From contig CP033051.1 in the NCBI GenBank assembly GCA_003667865.1, positions 3,498,501 to 3,562,500 of the forward strand: DNA of 64,000 nt, in the 5' to 3' direction. The position numbers and the translations under genes were made by a program. Numbering within the stretch: position 1 is the stretch's first letter; every line of letters begins with the position of its first letter. The notes under the pieces were generated by a model that had not been told where the DNA came from, searched no databases, and was given only the letters and a program-made list of their open reading frames with translations. This DNA comes from Rossellomorea marisflavi (lineage in GTDB: Bacteria > Bacillota > Bacilli > Bacillales > Bacillaceae_B). Of this stretch, positions 12,107 to 21,069 are shown piece after piece.

Positions 12107-12148
12107 CAAAATACGCTTGAACTCTTTTTTAAGAATCCAAGCGTTTTG
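12107..12148 (-). terminator. Terminator of the methionine operon
   Basis: On the minus strand, AAACGCTTG pairs with CAAGCGT around an AT-rich loop and is followed by a TTTTG tract, 20 bases past the hom stop. Confidence 0.75.
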
Positions 12149-12168: not shown

Positions 12169-13440
12169 TTATGCGTAAAGAGTTTCTATATTGTTTTGCA
12201 AATCTGCTTTCTTTTCTTCGTTAATATGAACGGGATAGATTGAGATATTTGGAAGTGCCTTAATAACCTCAATCAGCTCTTGTGTACAAGAAAGACTGTA
12301 AAAATAATGACCGTATTTTGTTCCTTCTTCTAAGATACGACATTTAGAATTGAAGTACTTTTTAGGTATTTCAGATTGTGAAAACACACCCCATTCATTG
12401 TAATGCTCTTCACCTTTAGGCTGTAATCCCCTACTTACTAGATTCTTTTCAAAAAATTGCTTTTCTTTTACAACTTGTTTTTGAGTTTGCCATATATGGA
12501 TAAAATCTTCTATCATTGCACTTGCTGTTGGCAACTTACCTGCCCCTGGTCCTCTCAATGTTATACTTCCTACTATGTCTGCCTCAATCGTTAATGCATT
12601 GTCTACTCCATTAATATGATATAAAGGATGTTGATCATCAACTAATAACGGCTGAACAGAAGCATAAATCCCCTGAGGATCTTTCCTTATGTCAATGATA
12701 TGTTTAAAGCGGTAGCCTGCGTTTTCTGCTAATGAGATATGCACTTTATCAATTGACTCGATACCAATTTTTTCGACTTCAGACCAATCAGGTTGGAAGC
12801 CAAAGGCTTGCTGACATAGAATCATACATTTATAAAAAGCATCAGATCCATCAATATCATTTGAAGGGTCGGCTTCTGCATATCCATTTTCTTGAGCCAG
12901 CTCTAACGCATGTTCAAATGGTAGATTATTTTCATTCATCTCAGTTAGAATGAAATTGGAGGTTCCATTCACGATTCCCTGAATTCTTGTAATCTGATTT
13001 ACTTGTAATAAATGCTGAATGGTACGAATAATTGGTGTACCACCAGCTGTTGTGGCTTCAAACCCTATTTGGATATTCCGTTCTTCTGCTTTTCTAAGTA
13101 GAGTCGAAGCGTGCTTAGAGAACATTTGTTTATTTGCTGTAACAATATGAATTCCTTTTTCAATCGCTCTTTCTATATAAGACCTTCCCGGCTCATCCCC
13201 TACAATTGCCTCAAACACAACATCTAAACCCTCAATATTAATAATATCTTCGTAATCTGTCGTTAATATAATATTTGGATTAACATGGCGCTCTTTTTGA
13301 ATATCTTTAATTAATATGGCTACAACTTCAACTTTAGCTCCTAAAAGCTGTTGAAATCGCTTTTGGTGTGTTTGAATCGTTTCATAAACACCTTGGCCAA
13401 CTGTACCAAATCCTAATAATGCTACTTTAATGGTCCTCAT
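12169..13440 (-). CDS. hom: Homoserine dehydrogenase
   Basis: This enzyme reduces aspartate semialdehyde to homoserine, the substrate of the MetX encoded just upstream. The ATG at 13440 overlaps the metX stop (ATGA) and has AGGAGG 9 bases before it, giving 423 residues. The Rossmann motif GFGTVGQGVYE starts near residue 10, TANKQ holds the active-site lysine, and GTSNFILTEM and EADPSNDIDGSDA are the classic substrate-binding blocks. The last ~80 residues are divergent and not a clear ACT domain, so threonine feedback control is uncertain. Placement in an S-box operon suggests a methionine-dedicated copy. Confidence 0.9.
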   Translation of the reverse strand: MRTIKVALLGFGTVGQGVYETIQTHQKRFQQLLGAKVEVVAILIKDIQKERHVNPNIILTTDYEDIINIEGLDVVFEAIVGDEPGRSYIERAIEKGIHIVTANKQMFSKHASTLLRKAEERNIQIGFEATTAGGTPIIRTIQHLLQVNQITRIQGIVNGTSNFILTEMNENNLPFEHALELAQENGYAEADPSNDIDGSDAFYKCMILCQQAFGFQPDWSEVEKIGIESIDKVHISLAENAGYRFKHIIDIRKDPQGIYASVQPLLVDDQHPLYHINGVDNALTIEADIVGSITLRGPGAGKLPTASAMIEDFIHIWQTQKQVVKEKQFFEKNLVSRGLQPKGEEHYNEWGVFSQSEIPKKYFNSKCRILEEGTKYGHYFYSLSCTQELIEVIKALPNISIYPVHINEEKKADLQNNIETLYA

Positions 13441-14549
13441 GCCAGTGGTTCCTCCTTTTTTAACAATGTAAAACGATTCTCTAAATGGTGCTGTATGACC
13501 CTTCCCCATTTTTCAAATTCTACGAGAAACCCATCATGACCAAAGTTTGTCTCGACAAAGTAAAAATGACTGTTTGCTATCTCTTCAATAAATGGTTCCA
13601 TTAATTCTTTTGGATAAAGTAGATCATGCTCATAGGCAATTCCGATAAACTTAGCTTTAAATTGTTTTGCCGCTTCTTTAAAATGTGTTCGATCTCGACC
13701 AATATCATGGTTGTTCATCGCTCTTAATAAGTATAAGTAACTATTAACATCAAATCGTTTTGTAAACTTCTCTCCTTGATACTTTAAGTAAGATTCAACA
13801 GAAAACAACGTTTCCATATCAGGTGATCGTTGTGTCTGTCTATTAAATCGGTCATTATATAAAATTGGACTCCGATAGGTTACCATACCAGCCATTCTTG
13901 CAATCTCTAAGCCTTTTACTTTATTAGAATACACATATCTTCCTTGATCCCAAGCAGGGTCATTGACTATTGCACTTATTCCAATCTGATTAAATGCAAT
14001 TCCATAGTCACTTAAGTAAGGAGTTGCTGCAAGAACGTATAGCTGCTCCATATCATCTGGATATAACAGCCCCCATTCTAATGCTTGCATTCCTCCAAGT
14101 GACCCACCAATTACTGCTTTTAATGTTTGAACATCTAGAGCATGTAATGCTTTCCGTTGAGCATGAACCATATCTCGAATGGTGATCGTTGGAAAATCCA
14201 TTCGATACTCTACGTTATTAATTGGGTTAATGGATGTGGGTCCACTTGAACCATTACATCCGCCTAATACATTAAAGGTAATCACTTGCCATTGGTTCGT
14301 ATCAATAGATTTCCCAGGGCCAATTAAACCGCTCCACCATCCAGGTTCTTCTTCTGTACCAACTGAATACTGGTTACCTGTTAATGCATGGCAAACTAGA
14401 ATTACCGGTAAGTGTGGGGAACCGACTTGTTCATACGCAAGCTGGGCATTTTCAATAACCTCTCCAGATTCCGTTTGAAATGAGCCAATTGAAATCTGAC
14501 CTTCCTTATAATTAGTAAACTGGTGCTGATGAACTCCTTTTACTTTCAA
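13437..14549 (-). CDS. metX: Homoserine O-acetyltransferase
   Basis: This 370-residue alpha/beta-hydrolase-fold enzyme transfers acetyl from acetyl-CoA to homoserine. The nucleophile elbow GGSLGGMQ has Ser150. The oxyanion and substrate region LTGNQYSVG is at 56-64, NVLGGCNGSSGP at 93-104, with the catalytic Asp in AYEHDLLYP and His in FGHDGF near the C-terminus. The only plausible start is a TTG at 14549, which overlaps the upstream ligase gene by 38 bases, pointing to coupled translation. Acetyl rather than succinyl specificity is inferred from family and from the sulfhydrylase-type MetY in the operon. Confidence 0.9.
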   Translation of the reverse strand: MKVKGVHQHQFTNYKEGQISIGSFQTESGEVIENAQLAYEQVGSPHLPVILVCHALTGNQYSVGTEEEPGWWSGLIGPGKSIDTNQWQVITFNVLGGCNGSSGPTSINPINNVEYRMDFPTITIRDMVHAQRKALHALDVQTLKAVIGGSLGGMQALEWGLLYPDDMEQLYVLAATPYLSDYGIAFNQIGISAIVNDPAWDQGRYVYSNKVKGLEIARMAGMVTYRSPILYNDRFNRQTQRSPDMETLFSVESYLKYQGEKFTKRFDVNSYLYLLRAMNNHDIGRDRTHFKEAAKQFKAKFIGIAYEHDLLYPKELMEPFIEEIANSHFYFVETNFGHDGFLVEFEKWGRVIQHHLENRFTLLKKEEPLA

Positions 14550-16224
14550 GTGCTTTCAACTCTCTTCGTAAAATTTTCCCGCTAATTTTCGTTTTCGGTA
14601 ACTCCTCTATCACTTCAATCTCACGTGGTGCTGCATGAGCCGATAATTGACTACGAACGAATAAACGGATCTCTTCCAATAAATTAGAGTTTTCTTGAAA
14701 TCCAGGATTTAATACAATAAATGCCTTTACAATTTCTCCTCTTATAGCATCTGGCTTACCAATGACTGCAGCCTCTGCAACAGCTCTATGCTCAATCAAT
14801 TTACTTTCTACTTCAAACGGACCAATACGTTCACCGGAAGAATTAATCATGTCATCACTTCGACCTTGGAAATAAACATACCCCTCCTCATCGCGTAAGG
14901 CTAAATCACCTGAAACATACCACTGTTTACCAAATGGAAAATAAGACTGATATTTTTCTTCATTTTTCCATACTTCTCTCATAAGTGATGGCCATGAAGC
15001 TTTTATAGCTAAATGCCCGATTTGGCCTTGAGTAACGGGAAATCCTTGATCATCCAAGATTTCCACCTTTATAAATGGTAAAGGTTTTCCCATTGAACCA
15101 GGTTTAATCGTATCTGTAGGTAAATTGACAATTAATTGAGCCCCAGTCTCGGTCATCCACCACGTATCATGTATACGTAACTGTAATTTTTCAAGTCCCC
15201 AATAAATAACCTCGGGATTTAAAGGCTCACCAACACTTAAAACATGGCGCAATGCTGATAAATCATATTTTTCTATTACTTGATCGCTTTTTGACATGAG
15301 CATCCGGAAAGCGGTAGGAGCACTATACCAAACAGAGATCTTTGCTTTTTCAATGGTTTCAAACCATTTTTCTGCCTGAAACCTGCCACCATGTATAACG
15401 ATAGTGGCACGGTTCAATAGTGGTGAAAAAACCCCATACACAGTACCTGTAACCCAACCTGGATGTGCTGTACACCAATAAACATCCGTTTCTTTTAGAT
15501 CGAGAACCCATCGACCAGTAACGTATTGTTGAATCATTGCACGATGTGTGTGAATAATTCCTTTTGGCTTACCTGTTGACCCACTAGTGTAATGAATATT
15601 TAAACCATGGTTAAAGTCAACCCATTCTATTACTGATTCTAAATTTTCAATCTGTTTTACTTCTTCTGATATTGAAATGGTGTCATCTTCTGTTGCTTCA
15701 TCAGTAATAAATATAGTTGATAAGGATGGAAGATCCTTTCTCGGAATACGGGGTAAGAATTCTTTATTCGTAATGAGAAATGTTCCCTCACAGTCTTGAA
15801 TACGATCACGTACTGCATCCTCCATGAATGCCTCAAATAATGGTCCTACAATGGCACCTAGTTTGATCGCAGCTAACATCGCAATGTGACAGCTAGGATG
15901 TTTAGGCAAAAATACGAACACAAAGTCTCCTTTAGTAACGCCGTGTTTTTTTAATACTTTTGCCCACTGATCTGTTTCATCCTTCAGTTGACTATAGGTT
16001 AACTGGCTTTCTAAGTTGTCATCTATATAATGAAGTGCGACTTTATCTCCGAATCCCTCTTCAACATGTCGGTCCACACATTCATAAGCCATATTAATCT
16101 TTTGTGTATGCGTCCAACTAAAGTGTTTTGTAATGATCGTCCAATCAAAATTCTCTCGATTTGGTAAGTCCTTGCTTATGTTATATGCTCCTTCAACTGG
16201 TGCAAGTTTTGTAACACGACTCAT
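14512..16224 (-). CDS. Acetyl-CoA synthetase-like AMP-forming acyl-CoA ligase
   Basis: This 570-residue ANL-superfamily ligase starts at the ATG at 16224, six bases after GGGAGG (a TTG two codons upstream overlaps the RBS). The P-loop-like YTSGSTGKPKG is at 212-222, the WWMTETG adenylation motif near 370, the hinge-side GRSDDMINSSGERIGP near 470, and the catalytic lysine in SGKILRR near 550. Acetate is the likeliest acid because the closest general resemblance is to AcsA. The gene lies between the sulfonate transporter and metX, overlapping metX, so it may supply acetyl-CoA for O-acetylhomoserine formation. That role is inferred from context. Confidence 0.85.
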   Translation of the reverse strand: MSRVTKLAPVEGAYNISKDLPNRENFDWTIITKHFSWTHTQKINMAYECVDRHVEEGFGDKVALHYIDDNLESQLTYSQLKDETDQWAKVLKKHGVTKGDFVFVFLPKHPSCHIAMLAAIKLGAIVGPLFEAFMEDAVRDRIQDCEGTFLITNKEFLPRIPRKDLPSLSTIFITDEATEDDTISISEEVKQIENLESVIEWVDFNHGLNIHYTSGSTGKPKGIIHTHRAMIQQYVTGRWVLDLKETDVYWCTAHPGWVTGTVYGVFSPLLNRATIVIHGGRFQAEKWFETIEKAKISVWYSAPTAFRMLMSKSDQVIEKYDLSALRHVLSVGEPLNPEVIYWGLEKLQLRIHDTWWMTETGAQLIVNLPTDTIKPGSMGKPLPFIKVEILDDQGFPVTQGQIGHLAIKASWPSLMREVWKNEEKYQSYFPFGKQWYVSGDLALRDEEGYVYFQGRSDDMINSSGERIGPFEVESKLIEHRAVAEAAVIGKPDAIRGEIVKAFIVLNPGFQENSNLLEEIRLFVRSQLSAHAAPREIEVIEELPKTKISGKILRRELKALESKRSSSAPVY

Positions 16225-16242
16225 TTGCAACCTCCCAACTAC

Positions 16243-16950
16243 TTATTTCAAACCTAATATCTTCAAGATTTGTTCTTTTTGTTGTACTAATTCTCCATCG
16301 CTTCTTGTTCTTGGTTTTTGCTTATTAATCGTAATTTCTGTATGAATTTCTCCAGGTTGCCCATTTAAAACCAGGATTCGATCACATAGATATAAGGCTT
16401 CATCTATATCGTGAGTAACTAAAATCATCGTTGTTTGACGTTGATTCCAGATTGAAAGTAAAAGGTCTTGTAGCTGCATTTTTGTAAAAGCGTCTAACGC
16501 ACTAAATGGTTCATCTAAAAGAAGTATATCTGGTTCACCGATAAGAGCTCGAGCGATGGCAACCCTTTGAGCCATCCCACCAGATAAACTTTTTGGAAAA
16601 TGTTTTTCAAACCCATTTAGACCAACAAGAGCAAGTAGTTCTTGAACATTTTCTTTTTTCGGACTATTTCCAACGCCGAAGCGAACATTATCTTCTACGG
16701 ATAGCCAAGGCATTAATCTAGGCTCCTGAAATATCATCCCTGTAGGCTGTTCAGAAATCGTTTCTGATAGAGAAATGCTTCCCTCATACCCTGTATCTAA
16801 CCCAGAAATTACCCGAAGTAATGTACTTTTCCCACAACCACTTGTTCCCAAGACACCAATAATCTCACCTTTTTGAATTGAAAAAGACAAAGATTTGAAG
16901 CCTGCTTTTCCTTCGTCAAAAATTCTCGAAACATTCTGAACTGTTAACAC
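16243..16950 (-). CDS. ssuB: ABC transporter ATP-binding protein, aliphatic sulfonate type
   Basis: This 235-residue SsuB-like ATPase starts at GTG 16950, ten bases after AAGGAG. Walker A GTSGCGKST is at 35-43, signature LSGGMAQRV and Walker B DILLLDEP follow in order, and the switch histidine is in LVTHD. It energises the adjacent permease and lies 18 bases ahead of the ligase gene. S-box control of the operon supports a sulfur source as substrate (alkanesulfonate or a methionine precursor). No SsuD-type monooxygenase is seen in the window. Confidence 0.8.
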   Translation of the reverse strand: MLTVQNVSRIFDEGKAGFKSLSFSIQKGEIIGVLGTSGCGKSTLLRVISGLDTGYEGSISLSETISEQPTGMIFQEPRLMPWLSVEDNVRFGVGNSPKKENVQELLALVGLNGFEKHFPKSLSGGMAQRVAIARALIGEPDILLLDEPFSALDAFTKMQLQDLLLSIWNQRQTTMILVTHDIDEALYLCDRILVLNGQPGEIHTEITINKQKPRTRSDGELVQQKEQILKILGLK

Positions 16951-16964
16951 GTACTTATCACTCC

Positions 16965-17807
16965 TTAGCTTTCATTGCCAATGCTGTCCTGCCATTTTAA
17001 TGATTTTGCTTCAAGCTTTTTTAGAACGGAGTCTGTTATTTTACCTAAGATGGCAAATAATAAAATACTAGAAATAATGAGTTCTGGTGAGTACGTATTT
17101 TGTCCTACGACAAGTAGGTACCCCAATCCTTTACTTGCTCCCATAATCTCAGCAGCTACAACAAACATCCACCCTAAACCAAGTCCTGTTCGGATTCCAA
17201 CAAGGAAAGAAGGTAGTGAAGCTGGTAGAATTATTCTCTTAACAATTTGAAATTGACTAAACTTATAAATCCTTCCAACTTCAATGAGTTTCCGATCAAC
17301 GTTTTGAATTCCAGAAACCATATTAATATAAACCGGGAAGAATACACCGACTGCAATTAATGTTACTTTTGAGGCTTCACCTATTCCCATCCACAAAATA
17401 AAAAGTGATACCCATGCCAATGATGGAATGGAGCGAAAAGCTTGAAGTAGTGGGTCAAGTAGCTTTTCAAATAACTTTACATAACCAACAGCTGCACCGA
17501 GTACTACTGCAGCACCTACACCTAACATAAATCCAAGAAACACTCTATATAATGTAGTGCCAATATGTCCCCATAAGGTCCCCTCTAATGCCATTTCATA
17601 AATTTCATTCACAATAACACTTGGTGCAGGTAAAAGGTGAGCCTCAACTAGTCCTGTTCTCCCTGCCAACTCCCATATAACTAGTAAAATAATAGGGAAT
17701 ATACTACCGAGAACAATATGATGGCTTCGAAACCCTTTTAAGTTCCATTTTTTACCAATGTTTTTTTGGACTGTTTTTGAACGAATTGTTTCAATTCTAC
17801 TGTTCAC
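16965..17807 (-). CDS. ssuC: ABC transporter permease, aliphatic sulfonate type
   Basis: The GTG at 17807 is chosen because AAAGGA lies 11 bases upstream; a GTG at 17837 has no RBS, so the exact start is uncertain (280 or 290 residues). A basic cytoplasmic N-terminus is followed by about six membrane segments and the EAA loop (EVGRIYKFSQFQIVKRI then LPASLPSFLVG). It pairs with the ATPase 14 bases downstream and the lipoprotein upstream. Confidence 0.8.
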   Translation of the reverse strand: MNSRIETIRSKTVQKNIGKKWNLKGFRSHHIVLGSIFPIILLVIWELAGRTGLVEAHLLPAPSVIVNEIYEMALEGTLWGHIGTTLYRVFLGFMLGVGAAVVLGAAVGYVKLFEKLLDPLLQAFRSIPSLAWVSLFILWMGIGEASKVTLIAVGVFFPVYINMVSGIQNVDRKLIEVGRIYKFSQFQIVKRIILPASLPSFLVGIRTGLGLGWMFVVAAEIMGASKGLGYLLVVGQNTYSPELIISSILLFAILGKITDSVLKKLEAKSLKWQDSIGNES

Positions 17808-17890
17808 AGAAATCACCGTCCTTTCTATATTCTTCACTCGTCATATAATGACAGTGGGGAAATCACCTCCCCACTGTCAAAGTTTTATGT

Positions 17891-18874
17891 CTATTCAATA
17901 ACCTTCTCAGCAAAGCTTGGTTCAAACAGTTCATCTACTAAACTTTCGATTTCAACATCTTCTTCAATAATCCCTTCAGCCTGCAATACATTACCAGCAC
18001 CTATAATGGTATCTTTCTGTTTCTGACCTGGTACTGAGTTCGAAAAATCATTTCGTTCTAATTGTTTCTTTGCAACTTCGAAATCTATTTGAGCTTCTTT
18101 CGCTAAAATCTCAGCTGTTTCTTCAGGGTTCTCAATTGCCCATTTACGTGCTTTCTCGTAAACTTCAATTACTTTTTCTACATATTCAGGGTACTTTTCT
18201 GCAAACTCAGAACGAACATTTAACGTTCCATACGTATTGAAATCAGCATTTCGGAAAAACAAATTACCTTCAGATTGTAGCTCAACACGTGCCATGTGAG
18301 GGTCTAAACCAGCCCATGCATCTACATCTCCTGCTAGTAAAGCTGTCGCACCATCTCCATGCTGAAGGTTAACAAGCTCAATATCCTTCTGTGTTAACCC
18401 ATGTTCTGTAAGAGCACGAACTAAGAAAATATAAGGATCTGTCCCTAATGTAGCAGCAACTTTTTTACCTTTTAAATCTTCAACAGATGTAACAGCACCA
18501 TCTTTCGTAACCAATGCCGTCCACTCAGGCTTCGAAAAGATATAAACTGTTTGAATTGGAGAGCCTTTTGCTTTAGCCATAAGGGCAGCAGCACCAGCGG
18601 TTGAACCAAAATCTGCACTATTAGAATTTAGAAATTCTAATGCTTTATTACTTCCTTGGCTTAATACATACTCAACTTCAATTCCCTCTTCCTTAAAGAT
18701 GTCTTCTGCAAATCCCTTCTCTTTTAAGACAAGACTCGTTGGAGAATAGTATGCATAATCTAATACAATTTTTTCTGGCTTACCACTTGCACTGCTTGAG
18801 GATTGTGAACACCCTGAAATAACTAGAGCAGATATAACAATTGCAACCAAACCTAAAGTAAGAATTTTTTTCAA
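17891..18874 (-). CDS. ssuA: ABC transporter substrate-binding lipoprotein, aliphatic sulfonate type
   Basis: This 327-residue lipid-anchored binding protein has a signal peptide ending in lipobox LVISGC, a serine-rich tether, and a type II binding fold. SsuA-like stretches are LDYAYYSPTSLVLKEKG, SADFGSTAGAAALMAKAKG and AGLDPHMARVE. It is the second gene of the SAM-riboswitch operon, 36 bases after the metY fusion. Ligand assignment is by family and context only; it is only distantly similar to the other NitT/TauT-type binding protein at 3.3 kb. Confidence 0.8.
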   Translation of the reverse strand: MKKILTLGLVAIVISALVISGCSQSSSSASGKPEKIVLDYAYYSPTSLVLKEKGFAEDIFKEEGIEVEYVLSQGSNKALEFLNSNSADFGSTAGAAALMAKAKGSPIQTVYIFSKPEWTALVTKDGAVTSVEDLKGKKVAATLGTDPYIFLVRALTEHGLTQKDIELVNLQHGDGATALLAGDVDAWAGLDPHMARVELQSEGNLFFRNADFNTYGTLNVRSEFAEKYPEYVEKVIEVYEKARKWAIENPEETAEILAKEAQIDFEVAKKQLERNDFSNSVPGQKQKDTIIGAGNVLQAEGIIEEDVEIESLVDELFEPSFAEKVIE

Positions 18875-18910
18875 CGGAACATTCCTCCACTTTATTGTTA
18901 TCGATATGTT

Positions 18911-20710
18911 TTAGACTTCACATGCATAGGTAACAATCGAACCACGTAATCGTTGAGCCTCTTTATATGTGCATCGGTTATGAACTACTTCAAGACCTGC
19001 ATCTTTTGCTATATCAGCAGCTTCTTGTGAGATTACGCCTTCTTGCAACCAGAATACTTTAGGTTTTATTTCAACTGCCTCTCTTGCTAATTCAACAGCA
19101 GCCTCCGGACTTCTAAAAATTTGCACAATATCAATTTTAAATGGAATAGAACGAAGATCCGGATAAGCCGTTTCACCTAACACTTCTGTTTCTCTTGGAT
19201 TGACTGGTACGATTTTATAACCAAGTCTTTGCATTTTTCTTGCTAAGCGATGACTCGGTCTTGCCGGATTACTGCTTAACCCAACAATAGCTAAGGTTTT
19301 TTGACGTTGAATTTCTTGGCCGTTTTCAATTTCTCTTTCTATCGGTGATTGAAGAGCCCATTTTATAACTCCCTCATCATTTACGGTAATTGTAGATTTT
19401 TCATCTCCATTTCTTGTAATACCTGTTGCAATTGTGATTGCTCGATCTAAATCATGAATCAGATCATCTACTAATTCGAGTCCAACTGAAAGTCGTATTA
19501 ATTCCTCTGTTACTCCTGTTTTCTTTAAATCGTCTGCGCTTAATTGTTGGTGTGTTGTTGAAGCTGGATGAATGATGAGAGACTTTGCATCACCTACATT
19601 GGCTACATGTGACCATAATGCAATATTATCTATGGTCTTTTTCCCTGCATCTCGACCACCTTTAATACCAAACACAACCATTGAACCGTGTCCACCACGT
19701 AAATATTTATTCGCAAGTGAATGTGCTGGGTGATCCTCTAAACCAGGATAGGATACCCATTCCACCGCTGGATGCTCCTGTAAGTATTGTGCAATAGTTA
19801 ACGCATTTTCGTTATGTTTTGGTACTCTTAGATGTAACGTTTCAAGACCTTGTAGTAATAAGAAAGCATTTTGTGGACTTAAGCATGAACCAAAGTCACG
19901 TAGCAACTGCACTCTTAATTTTGTTGCGAAAGCTAGCGTTCCGAAATCTGTTGCATATCGAATTCCATTGTAGCTACTATCAGGCTCTGTAAAGCCAGGA
20001 AATTTATCACTATTCCAATTGAATCGTCCTCCATCTACTACAATTCCACCAATGGCTGTACCATGACCACCGATCCACTTCGTTGCAGAGTGAACAACGA
20101 TGTCTGCACCCCAAGTTAATGGTTTTGATAAATAAGGTGTACCAAATGTATTGTCAATAATTAATGGGATTCCATGTTTATGAGCAATATCAGCAACTGC
20201 TTCTACATCAAGAACATACAAACTTGGATTTCCGATAATTTCTCCAAATATCGCTTTGGTATTATCCGTAATGGCATCTCTAAAGTTTTCTGGATTCGTC
20301 GGGTCAACAAATTTCACATTAATTCCGTACCTTGGAAGTGTTACGGCGAATAAGTTGTATGTTCCACCATAAATGTTAGTGGCTGCTACAATTTCATCAC
20401 CAGCACCTGCAATATTTAAAATAGAAAGGGCGATTGCTGCCATTCCAGAAGATGTTGCTACAGCCGCAACACCATCCTCTAATAAAGCAATTCTTTTTTC
20501 TAATATATCTACTGTTGGATTTCCTATTCGAGAATAGATATTCCCTGGTTCATCTAAAGCAAATAAACTCTGTGCATGATCGGTGTCATGAAAAACATAA
20601 GAAGTTGTTTGATAAATGGGTACTGCACGAGAACCAGTGGTAGGGTCCGGTGATTGCCCCCCGTGTAATAATAATGTTTCAAGTCCGTAGCTATCGAATG
20701 ATTTTGACAT
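18911..20710 (-). CDS. metY: O-acetylhomoserine sulfhydrylase fused to a CoA-binding domain
   Basis: The ATG at 20710 is preceded by GGAGG; 599 residues. Residues 1-430 are a PLP-dependent O-acetylhomoserine aminocarboxypropyltransferase, which makes homocysteine from sulfide: [10 protein letters not shown] at 57-66, and the PLP lysine Lys211 in [12 protein letters not shown] ~40-residue linker leads to a CoA_binding_2 (YccU-like Rossmann) domain at 471-599: [15 protein letters not shown], then [13 protein letters not shown], and [13 protein letters not shown]. Stand-alone MetY ends near residue 430, so the tail is a genuine fusion rather than read-through. It is the first gene after the SAM riboswitch. 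The role of the extra domain is unknown; binding CoA or an acyl-CoA is a family inference. Confidence 0.92.
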
Positions 20711-20831
20711 AATGATAAAACCTCCAATTATAATTAAGTTTATAGGTTTACTAGGAATTACAGATAAAGTTGTTACCATTTTCTTATTCTTTTCTAAAAT
20801 GGAGTTACAAGATAGAGAGAATCAGAGAAAC

Positions 20832-20858
20832 AAAAAACCCTCTTCATAAGAAGAGGGT
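20832..20858 (-). terminator. Riboswitch-controlled terminator
   Basis: ACCCTCTTC-TTAT-GAAGAGGGT is a perfect stem followed by TTTTTT. Its 5' arm plus loop (CTCTTCTTAT, 20846-20855) is exactly complementary to ATAAGAAGAG at 20872-20881 at the 3' edge of the aptamer, which gives the antiterminator. Confidence 0.92.
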
Positions 20859-20876
20859 GTATGTACATCGTCTCTT

Positions 20877-20992
20877 CTTATCTCTCAGATCACTTGGATC
20901 TGCAGGAATTAGCACCTTTTCAAGTATAATCAAGATATACTCGAAGGTTGCCGGGTTTCATAGGGCCTAGTCCCTCCACCACTCTGGATAAG
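20877..20992 (-). ncRNA. SAM-I (S-box) riboswitch
   Basis: Read on the minus strand the aptamer opens with CTTATCCAGAGTGGTGGAGG, continues with GACTAGGCCCTATGAAACCCGG and CAACC, has GGTGCTAATTCCTGC in the 3' half, and closes with ATCTGAGAGATAAG. These are the conserved S-box blocks, including the kink-turn and the P1 stem CTTATC/GATAAG. SAM binding stabilises P1, which occupies ATAAG and frees the terminator arm, shutting off the metY-ssu-ligase-metX-hom operon when methionine is plentiful. Confidence 0.96.
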
Positions 20993-21040
20993 ATTCAGTT
21001 TTTAATTGGGTAAAGCATTAATATGTTGCTTATGAATTGA

Positions 21041-21069
21041 AGTATAAAGTACATAGAATATATTGTCAA
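21041..21069 (-). promoter_or_regulatory. Sigma-A promoter of the S-box methionine operon
   Basis: On the minus strand TTGACA (21069-21064) and TATACT (21046-21041) are exactly 17 bases apart. Transcription would begin near 21033, about 40 bases before the aptamer. Confidence 0.85.

Follow-up and report, generated by a model that had tools for sequence, protein, structure and literature searches.

We analysed a window of 64,000 nucleotides from Rossellomorea marisflavi (assembly GCA_003667865.1, contig CP033051.1, positions 3,498,501 to 3,562,500). Its minus strand carries a seven-gene operon, running from 20710 to 12169, in which a predicted acetate--coenzyme A (CoA) ligase of the AcsA type is placed among genes for homocysteine synthesis. 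The genes are, in order, a metY fused to a CoA-binding domain, an SsuA-like binding protein, a permease, an ATPase, the AcsA-like ligase, metX, and hom (Table 1). A preliminary description of this DNA spoke of a continuous, tightly spaced operon under one S box, and gene order, strand, gaps, and the single RF00162 aptamer of an S-adenosylmethionine (SAM) riboswitch all bear this out. The gaps measure 36 bases between fusion and binding protein, 53 between binding protein and permease, 14 between permease and ATPase, and 18 between ATPase and ligase, while ligase and metX overlap by 38 bases when the longest open reading frame is counted and the metX stop overlaps the hom ATG by 4 bases. The fusion starts at an ATG at 20710, with GGAGG ahead of it. 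The gene content given there, a metY fusion followed by ssuABC-like genes, also stands, with the refinement that the added domain is a C-terminal PF13380 and that the transporter genes come as binding protein, permease, and ATPase.

The aptamer and its terminator fold with a z-score of -4.8, and the 5' side of the terminator is exactly complementary, over 10 of 10 bases, to ATAAGAAGAG, the 3' side of aptamer helix P1. This pairing is a possible antiterminator candidate, in the layout usual for an OFF switch. The source genome contains nine SAM riboswitches.

The MetY part of the fusion passes TIGR01326 (652.6 bits over 495.1) and scores 688.7 with the equivalog NF006096, below its cut-off of 726. 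The fusion is the sole MetY-type enzyme found in the source genome, the next best match being 41-44% identical. MetX passes NF001209 and falls below TIGR01392 (360, cut-off 500) and MetX_succinyl (287.8, cut-off 560). The fused CoA-binding domain (18914-19402) is about as conserved as the MetY part, with 74-83% in five related loci (L039-L043). It strongly matches stand-alone CoA-binding proteins (2duw, 1iuk/1iul) and weakly matches the first domain of nucleoside diphosphate (NDP)-forming acetyl-CoA synthetases, over half its length.

The binding protein passes the cut-off of the SsuA_fam subfamily, and SsuA 2x26 is the first PDB match of the profile of its family. The SsuB, SsuC, and taurine models remain below their cut-offs, so that the name "sulfonate importer" holds at the level of the family only. 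The transporter, which lies outside the SsuABC equivalogs as drawn by these models, may still work in an SsuABC-like manner. Its kinship with SsuA, together with SfnG and DmoA-type neighbours in other genomes, indicates that its substrate is most likely an organosulfur source.

Table 1 Features of the operon and its flanks, in window coordinates.
Feature	Position	Strand	Basis
MetY (O-acetylhomoserine sulfhydrylase) with C-terminal CoA_binding_2	18911..20710	-	PF01053 469 bits, PF13380 134.2 bits
SsuA-family binding protein, lipoprotein-like start	17891..18874	-	TIGR01728 231.1 bits, cut-off 163.5
ATP-binding cassette (ABC) permease, SsuC/TauC-like	16965..17837	-	PF00528 97.3 bits; PRK11365 187.7, below its 347
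ABC ATPase, SsuB/TauB-like	16243..16950	-	PF00005 121.9 bits; all 25 NCBIfam models shown below cut-off
Predicted AcsA-type acetate--CoA ligase, methionine-operon clade, 570 amino acids	14512..16224	-	NF003313 787.9 bits, cut-off 729
MetX, predicted homoserine O-acetyltransferase	13437..14549	-	NF001209 381 bits, cut-off 331
Homoserine dehydrogenase (hom)	12169..13440	-	PF00742 193.3 bits
SAM riboswitch (S box) aptamer RF00162	20875..20994	-	covariance model 92.8 bits, gathering score 44.4
Intrinsic terminator of the riboswitch	20837..20858	-	9-pair stem, then T run
Sigma-70-like promoter TTGACA-17-TATACT	21041..21069	-	11/12 consensus matches, consensus match only
12-pair hairpin, gap between binding protein and permease	17849..17879	-	no T run on operon strand; listed as terminator-like on + strand
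Terminator-like hairpin past hom	12113..12144	-	14 pairs; such sites as frequent in shuffles

The operon ligase and its clade

By family and pocket residues, the operon ligase is predicted to be an acetate--CoA ligase. It passes NF003313 and scores below the cut-offs of TIGR02188 (500.3, cut-off 724.95) and NF001208 (507.8, cut-off 657), and its nearest solved structure is 9g79, the AcsA of Bacillus subtilis. We take V310, T311, V386, and W414 of Salmonella Acs to have the acetate-pocket role, and pocket residues were mapped onto the window ligase by counting along the alignment to a solved relative. V258, T259, V331, W356, and the catalytic K550 are invariant in alignments of 10 and 12 rows, and V258 and T259 are each kept in 74 of the 75 rows of the clade defined below. 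The preliminary description had reckoned with acetate rather than a long-chain or aromatic acid, and the family scores indeed give no favour to the latter two. Long-chain, aromatic, o-succinylbenzoate, MbcS, and propionate ligases were set aside on family scores and nearest solved relatives. A 3-methylthiopropionate ligase was set aside on gene content, not on sequence, the operon being without partner genes.

The source genome also has a housekeeping acsA (L045), 57% identical to the operon ligase, beside which lie three genes that, from their position and the start of their sequences, we take to be acuA, acuB, and acuC. For a comparison of the two types, ligase frames of at least 400 amino acids and at least 500 bits were collected, giving 117 rows and, after identical ones were dropped, 105 different ligases. 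Around the catalytic lysine, the 75 that come from methionine contexts have PKTxISGK, whereas the remaining 30 have PKTRSGK; the two sets were drawn by the PKTxISGK motif itself. The 75 clade rows comprise the window, 69 survey loci, L013, L015, L128, L129, and L133, and gene context agrees for all of them, as it does for the 26 of the 30 other rows whose surroundings were viewed (all except L131, L132, L134, and L136). A rapidly built LG+G4 tree, with some long branches joined to one another, parts the two sets with full support in the Shimodaira-Hasegawa-like approximate likelihood ratio test (SH-aLRT).

Nine columns hold fixed differences between the two sets (at least 93% in each, with neither letter in the other set), and three of the nine sit where AcuA touches AcsA. 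Lys at 108 and His at 255 occur in 75 of 75 clade rows and in 0 of 30 other AcsA rows; in the window ligase the clade marks are K108, H254, and the inserted I547. All eight further ligases from such contexts carry K108, H255, and the inserted residue, one of them (L147) being a gene already seen.

The part of PMC11910552 describing the cryo-electron microscopy structure of the B. subtilis AcsA-AcuA complex reports that D255 and R108 hydrogen-bond the AcuA main chain, that A303, F283, and R282 make weak contacts, and that the K549 loop of AcsA is placed in the AcuA active site. K549, in the A10 motif, is given as the acetylation site of AcsA in the relevant part of PMC11255334. The marks of an AcuA-regulated AcsA (R108, D255, and PKTRSGK) are absent from the window ligase and from the other 74 clade rows. 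The clade ligases also have an extra residue in the lysine loop, and the weak contacts R282, F283, and A303, as well as the lysine, are unchanged. The chance of finding two of the five named contact residues among eight fixed substitutions is 0.0017, or 0.004, 0.008, and 0.033 under other definitions, with shared descent ignored. These changed contact points suggest that the operon ligase may work when housekeeping AcsA is off.

Nevertheless, the region of AcuA in contact with R108 and D255 overlaps the CoA site, as described in the same part of PMC11910552, which makes a changed CoA site an equally fair reading of these substitutions. The nine fixed differences, including H255 and K108, whose counterparts lie in this overlap, would likewise fit a ligase with a different short acid as substrate, such as propionate, a sulfonated acid like sulfoacetate, or 3-methylthiopropionate. 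We regard such a substrate as very improbable: the pocket residues are those of acetate enzymes, the propionate--CoA ligase and MbcS models are far under their cut-offs, and the operon is without an acylating aldehyde dehydrogenase or Dmd-type partner genes.

Distribution of the genes and further signals

The operon neighbourhood is patchy within its own genus. Among 60 relatives searched, 35 of them of the same genus, only one of these 35 (G002) has a ligase more than 60% identical, in an operon (L039) that reads fusion-ligase-metX-hom, without the transporter. Four genomes outside the family (L040-L043) carry fusion-binding protein-permease-ATPase-ligase, and a SAM riboswitch is present in each of the five loci.

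For a wider comparison, contigs were scanned with a CoA-binding domain profile of six fusions, and the best 80 of 139 confirmed loci were kept; as all six fusions lie near a ligase, these 80 loci lean towards the ligase. By record titles they belong to Bacillus and relatives, the furthest being Salinicoccus, Lacicoccus, and Ammoniphilus. In all 80, the fusion is preceded by a riboswitch (weak in L089, with 38 bits, and more than 1 kb before the called start in L069 and L092). The ligase, searched with tblastn, lies within 6.5 kb behind the fusion in 69 loci. The full transporter and the ligase are found together in 58 loci, a partial transporter and the ligase in 1, the ligase without transporter in 10, and neither in 11, including L116, whose sequence ends 109 bases past the match. 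A transporter without ligase was found by tblastn at none of the 80 loci. The 10 loci with ligase and without transporter belong to eight genera (Fictibacillus, Siminovitchia, Gracilibacillus, Salinicoccus three times, Rossellomorea, Aquibacillus, Halobacillus, and Terrihalobacillus). Of the 69 ligases, 18 are followed by metX, 19 by hom, and 32 by neither of these genes, and the called frames of ligase and metX overlap by 23-32 bases in 18 of the 69.

Ten of the 11 fusion genomes without a neighbouring ligase (all but that of L116) were searched for AcsA elsewhere, and three hold a clade ligase: Bacillus timonensis (L128), where it stands alone behind its own riboswitch, Bacillus sp. HNG (L129), with riboswitch-transporter-ligase, and Schinkia (L147), with two riboswitches-transporter-ligase. 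The survey profile described next found no SsuA-like binding protein in the B. timonensis genome (G069, identical to G387). Retention of the ligase without transporter at 10 of 80 loci, and alone behind a riboswitch in L128, favours a role within methionine synthesis. A ligase tied to the transporter alone is weakened by these same cases and by the ligase tree, on which transporter presence changes at least 11 times (L092, with its partial transporter, counted as without).

We also surveyed 397 genomes of the order with profiles built from the operon members. Score and position placed the ligase clade in 67 genomes, and in 68 after addition of G240, whose ligase was seen from its context; G079, G272, and G053 were included manually, based on position. 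Since the cut-offs missed G053 and G240, the 68 ligase genomes are a lower bound. The binding protein was found in 80 genomes, the fusion in 65, and the clade ligase in at least 68. All three occur in 58 genomes, binding protein and ligase in 7, fusion and ligase in 3, binding protein and fusion in 1, the binding protein alone in 14, and the fusion alone in 3, and each of the 68 ligase genomes was found to hold at least one of fusion and binding protein. Before G240 was added, the three genes were together in 57 of the 397 genomes, from 13 family-level groups; in these, binding protein and ligase follow in succession in 57 of 57 and the fusion is next to the binding protein in 50. Co-occurrence across so many groups, with conserved adjacency, suggests that the arrangement is more than chance. 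The P values for co-occurrence, calculated without G240, take no account of shared descent. A neighbourhood peculiar to this strain, a concern behind the preliminary description, is thus rejected by the 80-locus and 397-genome comparisons.

The transporter occurs without the clade ligase in 15 of the 80 genomes with a binding protein, and we viewed the contexts of 11 of the 15. Three from one family (L152, L153, L164) show riboswitch-metY(unfused)-metX-transporter, with no ligase. Four carry only riboswitch-transporter, and in one of these the contig ends within the operon. In two, a MetY-like gene occurs together with monooxygenases, and the riboswitches are located at a greater distance upstream; one has an SfnG monooxygenase, with no riboswitch found in the viewed context; and one (G050) has riboswitch-fusion-transporter-metX-hom.

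In Ammoniphilus (L091, 10566-15211) a second riboswitch precedes genes for a molybdopterin oxidoreductase-like protein, which has no NCBIfam match at 1e-20, a symporter-like protein, and the transporter and ligase. L162 (G259) has riboswitch-metX-fusion, followed by a second riboswitch before its monooxygenase-to-ligase genes. At G000:C1:2340879-2343143 (in L171) two divergent SAM riboswitches have a luciferase-type monooxygenase gene on one side and an ABC transporter on the other; judged by look, the monooxygenase is NtaA/DmoA-like and the transporter resembles metNPQ.

Among the remaining signals of the window, promoter-like matches show no excess in the region, with 24 against a mean of 31.8 in shuffles. 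The hairpin at 17849-17879 is probably a stabiliser or a partial attenuator. A cobalamin riboswitch (120.8 bits) lies on the minus strand at window positions 57027-56841.

A possible role of the ligase in homocysteine synthesis

With modest confidence, and on sequence grounds, we favour the reading that this is a SAM-riboswitch homocysteine operon with its own acetate-recharging enzyme and an organosulfur importer, the ligase having altered AcuA contacts. At low SAM, transcription would read through the riboswitch. From the chemistry of their families, Hom would provide homoserine, which MetX would acetylate from acetyl-CoA with release of CoA, and the MetY fusion would exchange acetate for sulfide, setting acetate free. 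The ligase would then convert acetate, CoA, and adenosine triphosphate (ATP) back into acetyl-CoA, at the cost of ATP to adenosine monophosphate (AMP), while the transporter would bring in an organosulfur compound as sulfur source. The overlap of the ligase frame with metX (18 of 69 loci) and the shared riboswitch suggest that the ligase would close the acetate loop of MetX and MetY, as a specialised paralogue of housekeeping AcsA that is maybe active while the housekeeping enzyme is shut off. Gene order and the residue changes point to recharging of pathway acetate to acetyl-CoA as probably the best reading. The preliminary description had proposed such acetate recycling, and the part concerning a conserved acetate-type ligase (NF003313 and the pocket residues) holds. 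Against an exclusive tie to MetY speaks the binding protein, which accompanies the ligase in 65 of 68 genomes.

Several observations weigh against this assignment. The binding protein is as closely tied to the ligase as is the fusion, which occurs in 61 of the 68 ligase genomes, and in each of the 64 genomes where both positions were measured, binding protein and ligase follow in succession, separated by a gap that would hold two genes. The 10 transporter-less loci were judged at the locus only, and in the survey 3 of 68 ligase genomes are without the binding protein. Seven genomes have transporter and ligase and no recognised fusion, so that a tie of the ligase to the MetY fusion alone is not exclusive either, and a good MetX match is missing in six of them. 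Each of the seven holds a MetY 68-73% identical, which is unfused in six by frame length; in G385 (L173) the MetY has a tail resembling a CoA-binding domain, decayed or much diverged. Conversely, in three of the 397 genomes the fusion is accompanied by neither binding protein nor clade ligase, and the other 7 of the 10 fusion genomes searched for AcsA have an ordinary one, their best copy being without the clade mark, from which it follows that the loop is not essential. As to the AcuA contacts, R108K is a mild change, the named contacts are made with the AcuA main chain, and other interface mutations had no significant effect on the complex, according to the interface description in PMC11910552.

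Since the ligase is coupled to the transporter no less closely than to the fusion, it could instead serve the imported organosulfur compound: desulfonation by a flavin mononucleotide (FMN)-dependent monooxygenase would leave a small acid, for example acetate from a C2 sulfonate, for the ligase to activate. The strict succession of binding protein and ligase noted above fits this role, as do neighbouring oxidative genes. A dimethylsulfone monooxygenase SfnG (over cut-off) neighbours the transporter in L154 and the clade ligase in L162, where the ligase sits behind a riboswitch, this monooxygenase, and an FMN reductase-like gene, a further point against acetate recharging; L157 has an NtaA/DmoA-type monooxygenase (over cut-off) close to riboswitches, and L161 has a luciferase-type one at the same place. 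However, C1 substrates of such monooxygenases leave formaldehyde, not acetate, and the window operon has no monooxygenase. The transporter-less loci, the solitary ligase of L128, and the 15 transporter genomes without clade ligase, one of them on a contig ending in the operon, also speak against it, and we consider a role in organosulfur use improbable, if the most substantial of the alternatives.

The ligase could also be a spare AcsA, used during methionine shortage to provide acetyl-CoA from acetate of external or overflow origin and not tied in particular to the acetate of MetY. Family and pocket are the same as in housekeeping AcsA, and MetX requires acetyl-CoA from whatever source. The ligase forms a clade of its own and is associated with methionine genes, which argues against a mere spare copy, although gene order cannot part recycling from supply; we find this explanation unlikely.

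Extending the acetate-recharging reading, we tentatively offer, as a view that is more doubtful than the reading itself, that MetX, the CoA-holding MetY, and an AcuA-free acetyl-CoA synthetase might form a unit with a closed acetyl loop. The acetyl group would in that case be a recycled carrier paid for with ATP, and the ligases would represent a second, anabolic class of AcsA under SAM control across Bacillales. O-acetylhomoserine sulfhydrylation loses one acetate per homocysteine, and its recovery, if true, would alter the stated ATP cost of the route. It would also account for a conserved gene that has been assigned to sulfonate uptake in one paper. In addition, such an enzyme would offer a natural AcsA variant for probing target recognition by AcuA, and could help in the engineering of Bacillus for methionine production.

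Comparison with known systems

The gene order is already in print for Bacillus methanolicus. The operon lists in the RNA sequencing study of strain MGA3 (PMC4342826) include (SAM)-(PyrR)-BMMGA3_03030-ssuA1-ssuC1-ssuB1-acsA1-thrA as sulfonate uptake; the order behind the SAM riboswitch is the same as in the window, whereas the listed operon has hom but no metX. The passages on this operon contain nothing on acetate or the role of the ligase. In strain PB1 of the same species (L093) we find riboswitch, fusion, transporter, and clade ligase. A term search of the main text of PMC13121692 gave no match to methionine, riboswitch, or paralog. Among the papers examined, which include PMC3766115, the operon was seen in PMC4342826 only. 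Within this literature we met no proposal for the role of the operon ligase, and an earlier one may exist in print.

The S-box regulon of Bacillus includes metI-metC, metE, metK, cysH, and others. The window operon shares its riboswitch class and sulfur amino acid genes with this regulon, and we know of no AMP-forming acetate--CoA ligase among its textbook members. Compared to the SsuABC alkanesulfonate importer, the transporter has a binding protein of the SsuA subfamily and the order A-C-B, but it falls below the SsuB and SsuC equivalog cut-offs and the operon is without SsuD. The CoA-binding domain, related to stand-alone CoA-binding proteins and to NDP-forming acetyl-CoA synthetases, is here joined to a pyridoxal 5'-phosphate (PLP) enzyme. 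Finally, the operon ligase belongs to the same family as the housekeeping AcsA of B. subtilis and keeps its pocket residues and catalytic lysine, whereas it lies in a riboswitch operon in place of acu neighbours and has Lys for R108, His for D255, and one residue inserted in the lysine loop.

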